Below are positions 1 to 16,420 of a stretch of 64,000 nt of DNA, piece after piece. Position 1 is the first letter of the stretch, and each line of letters opens with the position of its first letter. A program made the position numbers and the translations under genes. The stretch lies in assembly GCF_024494595.1 (NCBI RefSeq), contig NZ_JANHDI010000002.1:1-64000 (forward strand), read 5' to 3'. Under the pieces are notes generated by a model. The model searched no databases, had not been told where the DNA came from, and saw only the letters and a program-made list of their open reading frames with translations. This DNA is from Halobellus rarus (GTDB lineage: Archaea > Halobacteriota > Halobacteria > Halobacteriales > Haloferacaceae).

Positions 1-264
1 CGATTATGGGCACGGTGGGCCGTTACCCCACCGTCTACCTAATCGGCCGCAGCCTCATCCTACAGCACCGTAGTGTTTGTGACTCCCGGCGTTCCAGCGT
101 GGGAGTTGTATACTGAGTTGGCCTCAGTTTCCCGAGGTTGTTCAGTTCTGTAGGGTAGGTTGGCCACGTGTTACTGAGCTATCTGCCACGAGTGTGAACT
201 CGTGCGACTAGCATGGCTAAATCGGACTCCGATAGCAATGGCCTCCGGCAGGATCAACCGGAAT
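1..264 (-). rRNA. 16S ribosomal RNA, 5' part (truncated by window edge)
   Basis: The + strand at 241-264 is the exact complement of the conserved archaeal 16S 5' end (ATTCCGGTTGATCCTGCCGG). The following bases on the minus strand read as haloarchaeal 16S: the AGTAACACGTGG block and the GGTAGACGGTGGGGTAACGG block near 1-50 are both present. The gene therefore starts at 264 and runs leftward out of the window, leaving about 264 of roughly 1,470 nt. It is transcribed away from the origin locus at 13.4-14.3 kb. The sequence is clearly haloarchaeal, but this fragment alone was not enough to name a genus. Confidence 0.97.
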
Positions 265-2521: not shown

Positions 2522-3670
2522 ATGGATCTCACAGAGCGCATCGAACGGCGACGAACCCGGCGGAGTAAGAACGAACTCATCGTCGACCGCGACGCACTGA
2601 ATCCAGCAGTGCACCTCTCGGAACCGGTCGGTCGAGAGACGCTCTTCGAGGCGTTGTTGAACGCGGTCGACCCGCTTTTCGACCGAGCAGTCCCGCCCAA
2701 CACCTACGTCTGGGGGCCGCGGGGCTCAGGGAAGTCCGCCATCGTGACAGCGCTCATCTCGGCGCTCGACGCGGAGGTGACCGGAAAGGAGCCCTTTTAC
2801 ACCGCCACACGTGGGGGAAGCGACCGTCCCGACGTGCTCTTCGTCTACTTGGACGCGCGGCGGGCGACGAGTCGGTTCCGACTCTACCGGGAGTTACTCG
2901 ACAGCCTCCTCGTCGAGAGCGTCCCCAAGCGCGGCATTAGCACCGACGCGCTCAGAGAACGGATCGCCGACGTCACCGAGACGAGCGAGACGGTCCTGGT
3001 CGCCGTCGACCACGTCGAGGAGGCCGGAACGCCGGATCTCGCAGAACTGTACGCTACCTTCGAACCGTTCGACGATCTGGCGTGGATCGGCGTGGGTCGA
3101 ACGTCGCCCGAGGACCTCTCACTCCCCATCCCGGAACAGCAGGTCCACGTCCCAGCGTACACCTACGAACTGGTCGACGTCCTCACTGTCCGGGGCTCGC
3201 GCGGCCTCTCACAGACCCTGGATCACGTTCACGCCAAGCGGCTCGCCGAGTGGGCCGACGGCGACGCCCACGACGCGCTGGCGGCGCTCTTCGTGGCCGC
3301 GACCAACGCGGAGGCCGACGGGGCGACCCGACTCCGCGACGATGATATCGACGTCGGAACCGCGGCCGTCCCGCTCGGCGGCGTTCCGATCGGAACGGTG
3401 TTGGCCCTCTCCGACAACGAGCAACTCGTGTTAGAACAGTTGGTCGAGCGAGCGCTCCACGGCGAGGTCAGAATCGAGACGGCCGCCGAACGGATCGCAG
3501 CGCAGACGGATCTGACCGGCGGGACGGTCAAACGACTCCTGTACGAACTCGCACAGCGCGGCGTGCTGGAGCGACACGAGGTGGCCGTCGGCACGCGGAT
3601 GACCGGGCGTCGACCGAGTGGCGTCGCGCTGAACTTCTCGGAGCGGTTGTTCACGACGCTCAGAGACTGA
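2522..3670 (+). CDS. Cdc6/Orc1-like AAA+ ATPase, atypical paralogue
   Basis: A 382-residue AAA+ protein with the haloarchaeal Cdc6/Orc1 plan: an N-terminal segment, the ATPase core, and a C-terminal winged helix from about 285 (TAAERIAAQTDLTGGTVKRLLYELAQRGVL region). Walker A is intact (GPRGSGKS, residues 65-72). Walker B reads VLVAVDHVEE, so the usual Asp-Glu pair is Asp163-His164, and hydrolysis may be impaired. It lacks convincing ORB-type repeats next to it, unlike the orc1 gene at 12200-13402. Its stop codon overlaps the start of the downstream kinase gene by one base, implying coupled translation. It may be a plasmid- or satellite-type initiator relic or a protein with another role. Confidence 0.8.
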   Translation: MDLTERIERRRTRRSKNELIVDRDALNPAVHLSEPVGRETLFEALLNAVDPLFDRAVPPNTYVWGPRGSGKSAIVTALISALDAEVTGKEPFYTATRGGSDRPDVLFVYLDARRATSRFRLYRELLDSLLVESVPKRGISTDALRERIADVTETSETVLVAVDHVEEAGTPDLAELYATFEPFDDLAWIGVGRTSPEDLSLPIPEQQVHVPAYTYELVDVLTVRGSRGLSQTLDHVHAKRLAEWADGDAHDALAALFVAATNAEADGATRLRDDDIDVGTAAVPLGGVPIGTVLALSDNEQLVLEQLVERALHGEVRIETAAERIAAQTDLTGGTVKRLLYELAQRGVLERHEVAVGTRMTGRRPSGVALNFSERLFTTLRD

Positions 3671-12199: not shown

Positions 12200-13402
12200 T
12201 CAGGCCACGTCCTCGGTCAACACGTCCTTGACGACCTGCGGGTCTTCGAGCAGTTGGTGTTTCGTGTAGCTTCCTTCCGCGCTGCCGCCGCTGTGTTTCG
12301 ACTGTTCGATGATGTCGAGGAAAGCGTGTTCCTTGAGGAGGTCGCGTACGCGCCGGAGCGAGAGCGTGTCCGACCCCTGGCCGTCGCAGATGTTCTCGTA
12401 GACCTCGTAGACCCGGCTCGTTCGAAAGCCTTCCTGACGATCGCTCGACAGCGAGAGGATCGCGAGCGCCTGCAGGACGTATCGGGAGTGCGGCGTCGAG
12501 CCACGGATGAGTTCTCGGAACCGATCGGTCTCCGCGCGCTCGCGGGCCTGCGTGACGAACTCCTCGCGGACGGTCTGTGCGCCCGTCGACTGCGCGATCT
12601 CGCCGGCGTACCGGAGGATGTCGATCGCTTTCCTGGCGTCGCCGTGCTCTCGGGCGGCGAGGGCGGCCGCTCGCGGGATCGTCGAGGCGTCGAGGACCCC
12701 GTCGCGGAAGGCGTCCGAGCGCGCCTCCATAATCTCCCGGAGTTGGTTCGCGTCGTACGGCGGGAAGACGAACTCCCGCTCACACAGGCTGGATTTGACC
12801 CGTTCGTCCATCCGATCCTTGTACTGGATCTTGTTGCTGATGCCGATGACGCCGAGTTTGCACTGCTCGATCTTGCCCGCCTCGCCGGCCCGCGAGAGCT
12901 GCATCAGGATGTCGTCGTCGGAGAGTTTGTCTATCTCGTCGAGGAGGATGAGAACGACGTCGTACTGCGCGTCGAGGATCCGCCACAGTCGCTTGTAGTA
13001 CGTCGAGGTGCTGAGTCCCTTATCCGGGACTTTGATCCCGGTAACCTGGGACTCGTTGACGCCGTCGGCGATGGTCTGGACCGCCTGCGTTTCGGTGGTG
13101 TCTTGCGCGCAGTCGACGTAGGCGAAGGTCGCTTTCACGTCCTCCTCGCCGGCCGTATCGACCAGTCGCTGTGAGACGTACTTCGCACAGAGGGATTTCC
13201 CGGTCCCGGTCTTCCCGTAGATGAGGACGTTGCTGGGACTCTGACCGAAGATAGCGGGGTTGACTGCGGCCGCGAGGTCAGAGATCTCGTCGTCGCGACC
13301 GACGATTCGTCCCTCTCCGGGGAGGTGGTTGATCTCGAGTAACTCCTTGTTGGAGAAGATGGGGTCCTCCCGCGTGAAGAGATCGTCGCTGGTGTCCGGC
13401 AT
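12200..13402 (-). CDS. orc1: Orc1/Cdc6 replication initiator
   Basis: A 400-residue origin-binding AAA+ ATPase. Walker A is GKTGTGKS (63-70), Walker B LILLDEID (151-158), sensor 1 GISN (187-190), and a C-terminal winged helix occupies about 300-390. All ATPase residues are intact, in contrast to the paralogue at 2522-3670. The start at 13402 gives the N-terminus typical of haloarchaeal Orc1 (SNKELLEINHLPG region). The gene borders the ORB-rich, gene-free region 13403-14314. The first ORB lies only 8 nt upstream of the ATG and overlaps the probable TATA element, so the protein may repress its own transcription. It is probably the initiator for the adjacent origin. Confidence 0.95.
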   Translation of the reverse strand: MPDTSDDLFTREDPIFSNKELLEINHLPGEGRIVGRDDEISDLAAAVNPAIFGQSPSNVLIYGKTGTGKSLCAKYVSQRLVDTAGEEDVKATFAYVDCAQDTTETQAVQTIADGVNESQVTGIKVPDKGLSTSTYYKRLWRILDAQYDVVLILLDEIDKLSDDDILMQLSRAGEAGKIEQCKLGVIGISNKIQYKDRMDERVKSSLCEREFVFPPYDANQLREIMEARSDAFRDGVLDASTIPRAAALAAREHGDARKAIDILRYAGEIAQSTGAQTVREEFVTQARERAETDRFRELIRGSTPHSRYVLQALAILSLSSDRQEGFRTSRVYEVYENICDGQGSDTLSLRRVRDLLKEHAFLDIIEQSKHSGGSAEGSYTKHQLLEDPQVVKDVLTEDVA

Positions 13403-13410
13403 ACTACAGG

Positions 13411-13430
13411 ACACCGCGTTTCCGGTGAAA
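13411..13430 (-). promoter_or_regulatory. ORB 1 (orc1-proximal)
   Basis: On the minus strand it reads TTTCACCGGAAACGCGGTGT, identical to the core of ORB 4. It lies 8 nt upstream of the orc1 ATG and overlaps the likely TATA element (CGTATTTCA, about 13428-13435). Confidence 0.9.
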
Positions 13431-13522
13431 TACGTTGTTATTCCTCGCGACTCACGGGGCGGTACCCACCGTCGGGACGCGTCTGTTCTCCTTCGGAATC
13501 GGGGGATATTTCCATAGCGGAC

Positions 13523-13544
13523 ACACACCGAGTTTCCGGTGAAA
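13523..13544 (-). promoter_or_regulatory. ORB 2
   Basis: Minus-strand ORB whose only core change is ACTC for ACGC. It is followed on the + strand by a G-rich run (13545-13565), like the G-string reported next to some haloarchaeal ORBs. Confidence 0.88.
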
Positions 13545-13586
13545 CCGGGGATGGGAGGGGGAGGTTGGAGTCGAAGCGAGGGGTCT

Positions 13587-13607
13587 GTTCACCGGAAACA
13601 CGGTGTG
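13587..13607 (+). promoter_or_regulatory. ORB 3
   Basis: Plus-strand element GTTCACCGGAAACACGGTGT followed by G. Its orientation is opposite to ORB 1 and ORB 2, so ORB 2 and ORB 3 form an inverted pair 42 nt apart. Confidence 0.85.
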
Positions 13608-13644
13608 ATCCTCGTGGAGGCCGGGGCCAGTCGCGGGGGGAGAA

Positions 13645-13661
13645 GGCCCAGTTATCGGGCC
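13645..13661. repeat. Short GC-rich inverted repeat in oriC
   Basis: GGCCC (13645-13649) and GGGCC (13657-13661) form a 5-bp stem with a 7-nt loop between ORB 3 and the 19-bp repeats. Confidence 0.4.
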
Positions 13662-13681
13662 CAGGACATCAGTTTATCAGT

Positions 13682-13757
13682 CAGTATTGAAACTCCAGAA
13701 CTGCATCGAGATTTCAGGGCTGCATCGAGACTTCAGGGCTGCATCGAGATTTCAGGA
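13682..13757 (+). repeat. 19-bp tandem repeats in oriC (three good copies, one degenerate)
   Basis: The unit CTGCATCGAGATTTCAGGG occurs at 13701-13719, 13720-13738 (one change) and 13739-13757 (one change). The preceding 19 bases, 13682-13700, match at 11 of 19 positions and look like a decayed fourth copy. The array lies between ORB 3 and the AT-rich segment. The period is close to two helical turns, as in iteron-type binding sites. Confidence 0.85.
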
Positions 13758-13828
13758 CTGGTAGCTACCGACGACGTTTCGACCGGAACAGGCTCGACGA
13801 GCCTTATTCACTAGCGTGCGACGGAGTC

Positions 13829-13887
13829 ATTGGTAGATAACGAAATTAGGCTATTTAATTGTTGCTTTTTGAAGGACAAAATTGTCA
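13829..13887. other. AT-rich duplex unwinding element candidate
   Basis: An exceptionally AT-rich stretch (about two thirds A/T) in an otherwise GC-rich genome. It lies between the left ORB group and the right ORB group, which is where the duplex unwinding element of haloarchaeal origins is expected. Confidence 0.7.
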
Positions 13888-13954
13888 GAGTTCGTTGTCG
13901 AACTGTCATCGGCAAATCTGGTCTCGCTCGGTCAAACGGATCAGTTCCAGCGCA

Positions 13955-13976
13955 TTTCACCGGAAACGCGGTGTGT
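13955..13976 (+). promoter_or_regulatory. ORB 4
   Basis: Plus-strand ORB with the core TTTCACCGGAAACGCGGTGT. It is the first element to the right of the AT-rich segment and matches ORB 1 exactly, in inverted orientation. Confidence 0.9.
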
Positions 13977-14036
13977 CTCTCCCGGATGACGCCGTCTTCG
14001 AGGAATCCCCCAGAACCGGTTCACCGAAAACTCAGT

Positions 14037-14057
14037 TTTCACCGGAAACGTGGTGTG
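14037..14057 (+). promoter_or_regulatory. ORB 5
   Basis: Plus-strand ORB with one core change (ACGT for ACGC). A degenerate half-ORB (GTTCACCGAAAACTCAG) lies immediately before it at about 14019-14035. Confidence 0.88.
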
Positions 14058-14139
14058 CCTTCGCGTAATCCGATTCTTCCCGAACCGTGGTTGGCGAGTC
14101 GCTCGTAACGCCGACGACGTTTCACCGGGAAAAGGCGAT

Positions 14140-14161
14140 TTTCACCGGAAATCCGGTGTGT
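14140..14161 (+). promoter_or_regulatory. ORB 6
   Basis: Plus-strand ORB with ATCC in place of ACGC in the middle. A half-ORB (TTTCACCGGGA) precedes it at 14120-14130. Confidence 0.85.
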
Positions 14162-14199
14162 CCGTTCACGGGCTTCCCTCGTCAAACGTTCCCGCTCGC

Positions 14200-14247
14200 G
14201 GACTTCTCCCTCGACGGACTTCTCCCTCGACAGATTTCTCCCTCGTC
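14200..14247 (+). repeat. 16-bp tandem repeats at the helicase side of oriC
   Basis: GGACTTCTCCCTCGAC occurs as two perfect copies (14200-14215, 14216-14231) and a third with four changes (14232-14247). The array lies between the last ORB and the helicase start at 14315, so it may be part of the origin or of the helicase promoter. Confidence 0.85.
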
Positions 14248-14314
14248 AGTCAAGTCTGCGAGACCACCGAGAGAGTCGCAAGCCGTTTCCCAGTCGGGAG
14301 CCTTCCGGAAGACA

Positions 14315-16420
14315 ATGACCGACGAGGAGGGGAGGACCGAATCAGACACCGACGGCCGTTCCGGATCGGACGAGACTTCCGATCGCACGGCCGAACCTGT
14401 CGACGTCGAGACCGCCAGCGTCGAAACAGTCGATGTCGAAACCGTCGACATCGAGGGATTCCGGGACGTACTGGAGGCCGAGAGACGCCCCGTGGTGACG
14501 GCGTCGGAAGTCGCCCGGCGACTCGACACGACGCAGTCAGCCGCCGCGGAGAAACTCGATGACCTCTCCGAATCGGGCTCGATAGAGCGCGTGAACGTCG
14601 AATCGGATCCGGTCGTCTACTTTCCGGCCGAGTGGAGCGAACTCGCCGAACGCGAGCGGATCGTGCTGTTCCCCGAGCGTCGGGAGGTCGTCGTCGACCG
14701 ACCCACGCAGTACACTCGCGCGCAACTCTCGCAGTTCGCCCACCTGGTCGACTCCACTGGGAAGCGACAGCGGACCACTGCGGACCGAGAGACGAACACC
14801 CGCGGGTACATCTACGAGATCAGACAGGAAGACGTCTGGCAGGCCCCGTTCGACGACGTGTCCGACCTGCTCTCGCTGATGCGCTCGGTGCTCCCCCGAC
14901 GCTCACCGCACCTCGAATCGTGGGTGCAGTCGCAGTGGAAGCGCGCGAACCGGTTCAGGCTGTTCACCCACGAGGACGGCTACGTCGTCATCGAGGCCGC
15001 CACCGAGAATCTGATGGGCAACGTCGCCCGCCAGAAACTCGACGAGGAGCAGTTGGTGGCGCCGATCTCCGACACCCAGAGCTGGGTCCGCGACGGCGCG
15101 GAAGCGGAGATCAAGCGCATCCTCTACGAGGCGGGATATCCGGTCATCGACGACCGGGACCTCGACACCGGCGACCCGCTCGACGTCGAACTGACCGTCG
15201 ACCTTCGCGAGTACCAGCAAGACTGGGTCGAACGGTTCCTCGATCAACGCTCGGGCGTCCTCGTCGGGCCCTCCGGTGCGGGCAAGACCGTGACGGCGAT
15301 CGGTGTACTGGCCGCCGTGGGCGGCGAGACGCTCGTGCTGGTCCCGTCCCGGGAGCTCGCCACCCAGTGGCGCGAAGAACTCCTTCGACACACGACGCTC
15401 ACAGCCGAGCAGATCGGCGAGTACCACGGCGGGCAGAAGGAGATCCGGCCGGTGACGATCGCGACGTACCAGACCGCCGGGATGGACCGTCATCGCTCGC
15501 TGTTCGACTCCCGCGGGTGGGGACTCGTCGTCTACGACGAGGTGCACCACATCCCTTCGCGGATCTACCGACGGAGCGCGGACCTCCAGACGAAGCATCG
15601 CCTGGGCCTGTCGGCGACTCCCGTGCGCGAGGACGACAAGGAGAAGGAGATCTTCACGCTGATCGGGCCCCCGATCGGGACCGACTGGTCGAAGCTCTTC
15701 GAGGCCGGATACGTCCAGGAGCCGGAGGTCCAGATTCGCTATCTCCCGTGGGCCGACGACCTCGCACGCAACGAGTGGTCGAGCGCGGAGGGGCGAGACA
15801 GACACCGGATCGCCGCGGAGAACCCCCAGAAGATCGAAGAGACTCGGCGGCTGCTCGACGCTCACTCGGGCGCGAAGGCGCTCGTTTTCGTCGACTGGCT
15901 CGAACAAGGCGAAGCCCTTGCGGAGGCGCTCGACGTGCCGTTCGTCAGCGGCGAGATGCCGCACCACCGTCGCCAGCGCGTGTTCGATTCGTTCCGCGAC
16001 GGCGACCTCGACACGCTCGTGATCTCGCGCGTCGGCGACGAGGGGATCGACCTCCCGAACGCGGAGCTCGCGATCGTCGCGTCGGGACTCGGCGGGTCGC
16101 GCCGACAGGGCGCACAGCGCGCCGGACGGACGATGCGCCCCGCCGGCGGATCGCGGGTGTACGTGCTGGCCACCCGCGGTACTTCCGAAGAGGACTTCGC
16201 ACAGCGGCGGATGCGTCATCTCGCCGAGAAGGGGGTTCGCGTGACCGAATCCGACCGCACCCAGGAGGCGGCAGTCGACCAGGCTGGATCGGAAAGCGAC
16301 GACCGGGACGAATCGGAAAGCGACGACCGGGATGAATCGGAAAGCGACGACCGGACGGATCCGTCCCGTACGGACACGGATCCGTCCGATCGAGATGACC
16401 TCCGAGAAACCGGAGACTGA
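14315..16420 (+). CDS. XPB/Rad25-like SF2 DNA helicase
   Basis: A 701-residue superfamily-2 helicase. An acidic N-terminus is followed by a helix-turn-helix-like segment (about 48-95: VTASEVARRLDTTQSAAAEK) and a damage-recognition-type region. The helicase core follows with Walker A GPSGAGKT (318-325), a DEVH box (408-411), LSATP (motif III) and QRAGRTMRP (motif VI). This fits the archaeal XPB group used in repair or transcription-coupled opening. The C-terminus carries three 8-residue acidic repeats (SESDDRDE type) encoded by 24-bp tandem repeats at 16286-16355. The ATG at 14315 was chosen because upstream in-frame codons run into ORB 6 and the oriC repeats. It is followed 8 nt later by the methyltransferase gene. 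Confidence 0.88.
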   Translation: MTDEEGRTESDTDGRSGSDETSDRTAEPVDVETASVETVDVETVDIEGFRDVLEAERRPVVTASEVARRLDTTQSAAAEKLDDLSESGSIERVNVESDPVVYFPAEWSELAERERIVLFPERREVVVDRPTQYTRAQLSQFAHLVDSTGKRQRTTADRETNTRGYIYEIRQEDVWQAPFDDVSDLLSLMRSVLPRRSPHLESWVQSQWKRANRFRLFTHEDGYVVIEAATENLMGNVARQKLDEEQLVAPISDTQSWVRDGAEAEIKRILYEAGYPVIDDRDLDTGDPLDVELTVDLREYQQDWVERFLDQRSGVLVGPSGAGKTVTAIGVLAAVGGETLVLVPSRELATQWREELLRHTTLTAEQIGEYHGGQKEIRPVTIATYQTAGMDRHRSLFDSRGWGLVVYDEVHHIPSRIYRRSADLQTKHRLGLSATPVREDDKEKEIFTLIGPPIGTDWSKLFEAGYVQEPEVQIRYLPWADDLARNEWSSAEGRDRHRIAAENPQKIEETRRLLDAHSGAKALVFVDWLEQGEALAEALDVPFVSGEMPHHRRQRVFDSFRDGDLDTLVISRVGDEGIDLPNAELAIVASGLGGSRRQGAQRAGRTMRPAGGSRVYVLATRGTSEEDFAQRRMRHLAEKGVRVTESDRTQEAAVDQAGSESDDRDESESDDRDESESDDRTDPSRTDTDPSDRDDLRETGD
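16286..16355 (+). repeat. 24-bp tandem repeats inside the XPB-like gene
   Basis: Three copies of a 24-bp unit (16286-16309, 16310-16333, 16334-16355, the last slightly short) encode a charged Ser/Glu/Asp/Arg tail. Copies differ by one or two bases, which suggests recent slippage expansion of a disordered tail. Confidence 0.8.

Follow-up and report, generated by a model that had tools for sequence, protein, structure and literature searches.

Remote initiator boxes at conserved chromosomal positions are known from Escherichia coli, where they are called datA and DARS. Haloarchaeal origins of the oriCb family adjoin the rrn operon in Haloferax, Halogeometricum, and Halorubrum (Wu 2012, PMC3528665), and deletion of orc5 in Haloferax volcanii ends initiation at oriC2 (PMC6063281). 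In Haloarcula hispanica, oriC2-cdc6E has extra ORBs outside its minimal origin, 11 of them clustered directly downstream of cdc6E, for which a titration of the initiator has been proposed (PMC3936714). Here, we describe a locus in a Halobellus-like genome that, judging from its sequence, belongs to the oriCb / oriC2-orc5 family, whose Haloferax member is experimentally active.

Anatomy of the orc-helicase gap

The window, i.e., the whole stretch of 64,000 nucleotides that we analyzed, had been said in a first-pass annotation to contain a 912-bp gene-free region beside orc1. This corresponds exactly to the gap between two divergent start codons (13403 to 14314, 912 bp). On one side is an orc1/cdc6 initiator gene on the minus strand (12200 to 13402, ATG at 13402), which encodes a 400-aa protein (TIGR02928, 431 bits) with AAA+, lid (Cdc6_lid), and winged-helix (Cdc6_C) domains. 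On the other is an XPB/Rad25-like DNA helicase gene on the plus strand (14315 to 16420, ATG at 14315; ERCC3_RAD25_C 3e-25, ResIII 4e-23), which forms the boundary of the origin and scores 388 bits against NF045503, under the cut-off of 610.

The Orc protein is the ortholog of H. volcanii Orc5. It shows 96 to 97% identity within Halobellus, 91 to 93% to Halogeometricum and Haloferax (91 to 92% for the Haloferax orthologs), and 87 to 90% to Halorubrum, which is in keeping with the identity of at least 80% that marks the oriCb family (PMC3528665). Haloferax loci were anchored by published H. volcanii orc5/oriC2 primers (PMC6063281). Since these primers land at the expected gene ends, with MHorc5F2 falling on the orc start codon in Haloferax loci and MHorc5R1 corresponding to the orc 3' end with 2 to 5 mismatches in most of them, we take the adjacent gene to be the orc5 ortholog and the origin to be of the H. 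volcanii oriC2 type, which the first-pass annotation left unnamed. Linkage to rrn is also found: the 5' part of the 16S rRNA (1 to 264, minus strand; Rfam RF01959, 238 bits) is ~12 kb from orc, and the operon, downstream of orc at the contig edge, is transcribed away from the origin. Between rrn and the origin, there is a 382-aa AAA+ protein (2522 to 3670, plus strand) that is weakly similar to the orc1/cdc6 family (44 bits), a score unlike that of an ordinary Orc. Cumulative GC skew climbs to ~13 to 18 kb and then declines, a weak signal that is affected by gene strand.

Within the gap, we found six full copies of a 21-bp ORB, TTTCACCGGAAACnCGGTGTG, in the orientations previously given, i.e., minus, minus, plus to the left of an AT-rich core and plus, plus, plus to its right. 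The first is promoter-proximal (ORB 1, 13410 to 13430, minus, 33.4 bits), spanning positions −28 to −8 relative to the orc start codon, and the next two form a divergent pair (ORB 2, 13524 to 13544, minus, 34.6 bits; ORB 3, 13587 to 13607, plus, 32.0 bits). Beyond the core are the innermost distal box (ORB 4, 13955 to 13975, plus, 35.3 bits), ORB 5 (14037 to 14057, plus, 34.0 bits), and ORB 6 (14140 to 14160, plus, 32.7 bits). These position weight matrix (PWM) scores of 32.0 to 35.3 bits compare with 10.5 for the best match elsewhere in the window (outside the origin region) and 17.4 for the best in ten dinucleotide-Markov shuffles of 64 kb, and the exact 20-mer ORB pattern is expected by chance ~0.0003 times per genome. 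The 3' end of the box is GGTGTG, with no G run, and its short dyad (CACCG...CGGTG) could pair as a short stem. The description of the ORBs as inverted groups is correct, the inversion being that of the two orc-proximal boxes (13410 and 13524, minus) against the remaining ones; the pair immediately either side of the core (13587 and 13955, both plus) is direct. Half-sites had also been reported before two of the full ORBs, and both are present, preceding them by 18 and 20 bp. One is a half or degenerate ORB, GTTCACCGAAAACTCAGTTTT (14019 to 14039, plus), scoring 17.2 bits, close to the best of the shuffles, and the other, TTTCACCGGGAAAAGGCGATT (14120 to 14140, plus), has the left half with one mismatch.

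The AT-rich core (13824 to 13896), presumed to be the DNA unwinding element, reaches 70% A+T over 60 bp, the highest value for any 60-bp segment in the window. It contains a motif reading towards orc, TTTGTCCTTCAAAAAGCAACAATTAAATA (13852 to 13880, minus), that scores 36.7 bits against a mean best score of 3.3 and a maximum of 18 in shuffles. The motif, which ends in AACAAnWTTAAATA, is common to Halobellus, Haloferax, and Halogeometricum loci and directed at orc. It looks like a BRE/TATA promoter element facing orc; it may be the melting (unwinding) core or a promoter TATA element, and it could flag a transcript running through the origin. Two tandem-repeat arrays also occur inside the gap, of 19-nt units (three to four copies, 13686 to 13760) and 16-nt units (three copies, 14199 to 14246), neither of which appears in five other Halobellus origins that were aligned.

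Fixed and variable parts across 66 loci

We compared the window origin with 65 further orthologous loci, i.e., 66 loci in total; TTTCACCGGAAACnCGGTGTG is also found upstream of orc in those of Haloferax, Halogeometricum, and Halorubrum. In all 66, an ORB lies 24 to 30 bp upstream of the orc start and points at orc, the end of the box being ~8 bp before the ATG. Upstream of this proximal box, most genera have (in orientations relative to orc) a plus and a minus box, the AT-rich core, and then one to seven minus boxes. The divergent pair is spaced by 63 to 65 bp in most non-Halorubrum loci, and the core keeps its relative position in relatives; in the loci compared, 50 to 100 bp separate it from the innermost distal box. 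Distal ORBs vary in number among loci, with Halorubrum showing fewer of them and often one extra plus box. In four Halorubrum-type loci (L054, L060, L065, and L081), the ORB cluster is several kb off or on another contig, and the promoter box stays. One of these, L060, is labeled Halobellus captivus ZY8, yet it resembles Halorubrum in both origin layout and Orc identity.

Half-sites are enriched in the relatives, with 11 found against 0.5 expected in the 66 upstream regions. Since they do not occur at matching positions, they appear to be decaying ORBs, and this lack of positional conservation rules them out as a fixed functional element. The cross-species comparison suggested in the first-pass annotation thus shows that the proximal ORB, the order of orientations, and the position of the AT-rich core are fixed, but not ORB number, spacing, or half-sites. 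When compared to H. volcanii oriC2-orc5, the window origin has an orthologous Orc, the same ORB, the same orientation order, and an rrn operon transcribed away; it differs from Haloferax in having six ORBs instead of 8 to 10, a second ORB pair 65 bp further from orc, and rrn at ~12 kb instead of close by.

Since leaderless transcripts are frequent in haloarchaea, the proximal box would overlie the core promoter of orc, and the sequence comparison suggests that this fixed box probably serves orc autoregulation. That all 66 loci keep an ORB at the promoter, with ORB number left free, argues that autoregulation of the initiator is the most conserved feature of these origins.

Single ORBs far from the origin

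A search of the whole genome of the window (G000) for the exact pattern TTCACCGGAAANNNGGTGTG returned one ORB besides the origin copies. It is 162 kb away (G000:C16:175645-175664, minus; L024:7646-7665), in the intergenic gap where gyrA and an agmatinase-like gene converge, a site that has a remote ORB in Halobellus, Halogeometricum, and one further genus. Other neighborhoods are 1) bcp-gins-priS (HVO_2697/2698 by PMC7776575) next to cdc48 or idsA, in Haloferax and others (GINS and PriS being named from sequence reading and the H. volcanii gene table, not from a family search), and 2) an ndk/PQQ-like neighborhood and two further sites in Halorubrum. One exact copy outside the origin was present in 10 of the 11 Haloferax species searched (the neighborhood was read for two), and one or more matches beyond the origin cluster were found in 28 of 28 Halorubrum-type genomes with the pattern. 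The distance from the origin ranges from 31 to 468 kb for 19 sites on contigs over 2.7 Mb, which synteny makes nonindependent; this range may not hold for H. volcanii itself, in which the gene numbers of GINS and orc5 are far apart. Most remote ORBs are intergenic and lie where the 3' ends of two genes face each other, and by eye we saw no consistent orientation relative to the origin.

These sites were found by ORB matching, so their core is conserved by construction and diverged copies are missed by exact matching; the unbiased tests are a gyrA comparison, in which loci were found by protein, and a table of pattern versus Orc5. In the latter, which covers 60 family genomes, the exact pattern is present in 29 of 29 with Orc5 and in only 1 of 31 without, although Fisher values overstate independence because the genomes are related. 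The lone exception, G010, carries one copy, close to an iscU-like gene. Since the ORB pattern tracks Orc5 in this way, the genome comparison supports a pairing of the two. In the genus set, orc5 is found in 10 of 17 genomes, and an ORB follows gyrA in all 10 of them and in none of the five orc5-less genomes where gyrA was found. A gyrA tree, from which three rows in a wrong reading frame were left aside, separates the orc5-less genomes of the genus group from the rest by a single branch (support 94/94). Loss of orc5 within the genus was probably a single event, and the joint loss of orc5 and the remote ORB may have been one event as well.

What might the remote ORBs be? Chance is rejected by the above expectation per genome. 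Their place at convergent 3' ends, together with the short dyad of the box, would also suit hairpins for transcription termination or RNA processing of convergent genes rather than Orc5 sites. We find this unlikely, because the exact ORBs follow orc5 across the family, as a general terminator should not, and because two of the five orc5-less genomes, which are Halobellus-type, retain the gyrA-agmatinase neighbors and have lost the ORB. As a general explanation, gene-regulatory operators are unlikely, because most of the sites are at 3' ends and their neighbors differ between genera; the hisC, hflX-like, and E-type sites, which lie upstream of a gene, may be operators. A titration cluster of the oriC2D type does not apply either, since a PWM scan from orc to the window start found zero ORBs. 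The H. hispanica origin is alike in having extra ORBs beyond the minimal origin, but the window origin has none downstream of orc, and its extra ORB is single and distant. By analogy, the remote ORBs resemble datA and DARS in being far from the origin at conserved positions; unlike these, they are single boxes, in gene neighborhoods that differ by genus, and are not known to affect initiation. A literature search that covered few subscription papers, and is thus weak evidence of absence, turned up no account of ORBs at a distance from the origins of haloarchaea.

Identity and proposed working of the origin

The genome has ~10 other orc/cdc6 genes, several with ORB families of their own, and haloarchaeal origins with intact ORBs and cdc6 can be dormant, which raises the question of whether the window origin has all its parts and is normally silent, like oriC4-cdc6H of Haloferax mediterranei (PMC4595724). 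This is very improbable: oriC4 is sporadic and sits in a variable region (PMC4595724), whereas the window origin is kept beside rrn in most Haloferacaceae genera and is orthologous to an active H. volcanii origin. Four of the further orc genes (G000:C23:113789, C25:175243, C22:96349, and C20:20826; L009, L010, L012, and L013) have distinct ORB families, e.g., GAACACATCGATAGAGGTGTGT, several being flanked on both sides of the gene.

Identity with the canonical chromosomal oriC1, which also has ORBs on either side of an AT-rich core next to orc and which proximity to rrn might suggest, is ruled out by a separate oriC1 at G000:C11 with another Orc subfamily (a 627-aa open frame) and a canonical G-string ORB (CCAnnTGAAACGAAGGGGTGGGGG, with GGGGTGGGGG at C11) that differs from the ORB in the window, and by the universality of oriC1 in haloarchaea (PMC3528665), given that about half of the genomes in the family lack the window-type Orc. 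The oriC1 locus (L199, L200) has two inverted G-string ORBs at G000:C11:7450 and 7648 and an isolated third at 13766. This oriC1-type satellite, ~6 kb from oriC1, recurs at 6 to 7 kb (17 to 19 kb in two) in other Halobellus genomes, and satellite ORBs are therefore not limited to oriC2.

The claim of a complete haloarchaeal origin is borne out, as far as sequence can tell, by the cognate Orc, the inverted ORB groups, the AT-rich core, the orthology to the active oriC2-orc5, and the 65 further loci; the origin was correctly recognized and is an ordinary member of an already described family. It is thus highly probable that this is a chromosomal origin of the oriCb family, orthologous to H. volcanii oriC2-orc5, with Orc5-bound ORBs, an opening core, and feedback through the proximal ORB. 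What we observed are its anatomy, its orthology, the constant ORB next to the promoter, and the way this ORB type tracks Orc5. Two features run counter to this explanation: the ORBs are without the extended G-string described for haloarchaeal ORBs (Wu et al., PMC3528665), and the two core-flanking ORBs are direct, not inverted.

From Haloferax work and general archaeal knowledge, we infer how binding, melting, firing, and autoregulation might proceed. The adjacent gene would supply Orc5, which would bind the ORBs either side of the AT-rich core; the core would open and MCM be loaded between the proximal and distal groups, giving bidirectional replication. At the ORB just before the orc start codon, Orc5 would repress (or gate) its own synthesis in a feedback loop. 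The remote boxes may bind Orc5 and influence how much of it is available, much as an ORB-rich region limits oriC2 in Haloarcula (PMC3936714). With one to four remote boxes against 6 to 10 at the origin, such a sink would be modest, and a different replication-linked role is just as possible. We regard as evenly poised the proposal that Orc5 origins have conserved remote single ORBs acting in trans on Orc5 availability or on another replication step. These would be a putative archaeal counterpart of datA-like sites, bound by Orc5 in 3' intergenic regions of the origin-proximal part of the chromosome, at gyrB-gyrA in Halobellus and Halogeometricum, bcp-gins-priS and cdc48 in Haloferax, and ndk in Halorubrum.

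While the origin itself is a clean addition to a known family, the wider interest is in the ORB fixed at the promoter and in the remote copies. If the latter are bound by Orc5, archaeal initiators would own conserved chromosomal sites far from origins, and these would bear on how initiation is limited in multi-origin polyploid archaea, among which Haloferax is genetically tractable.
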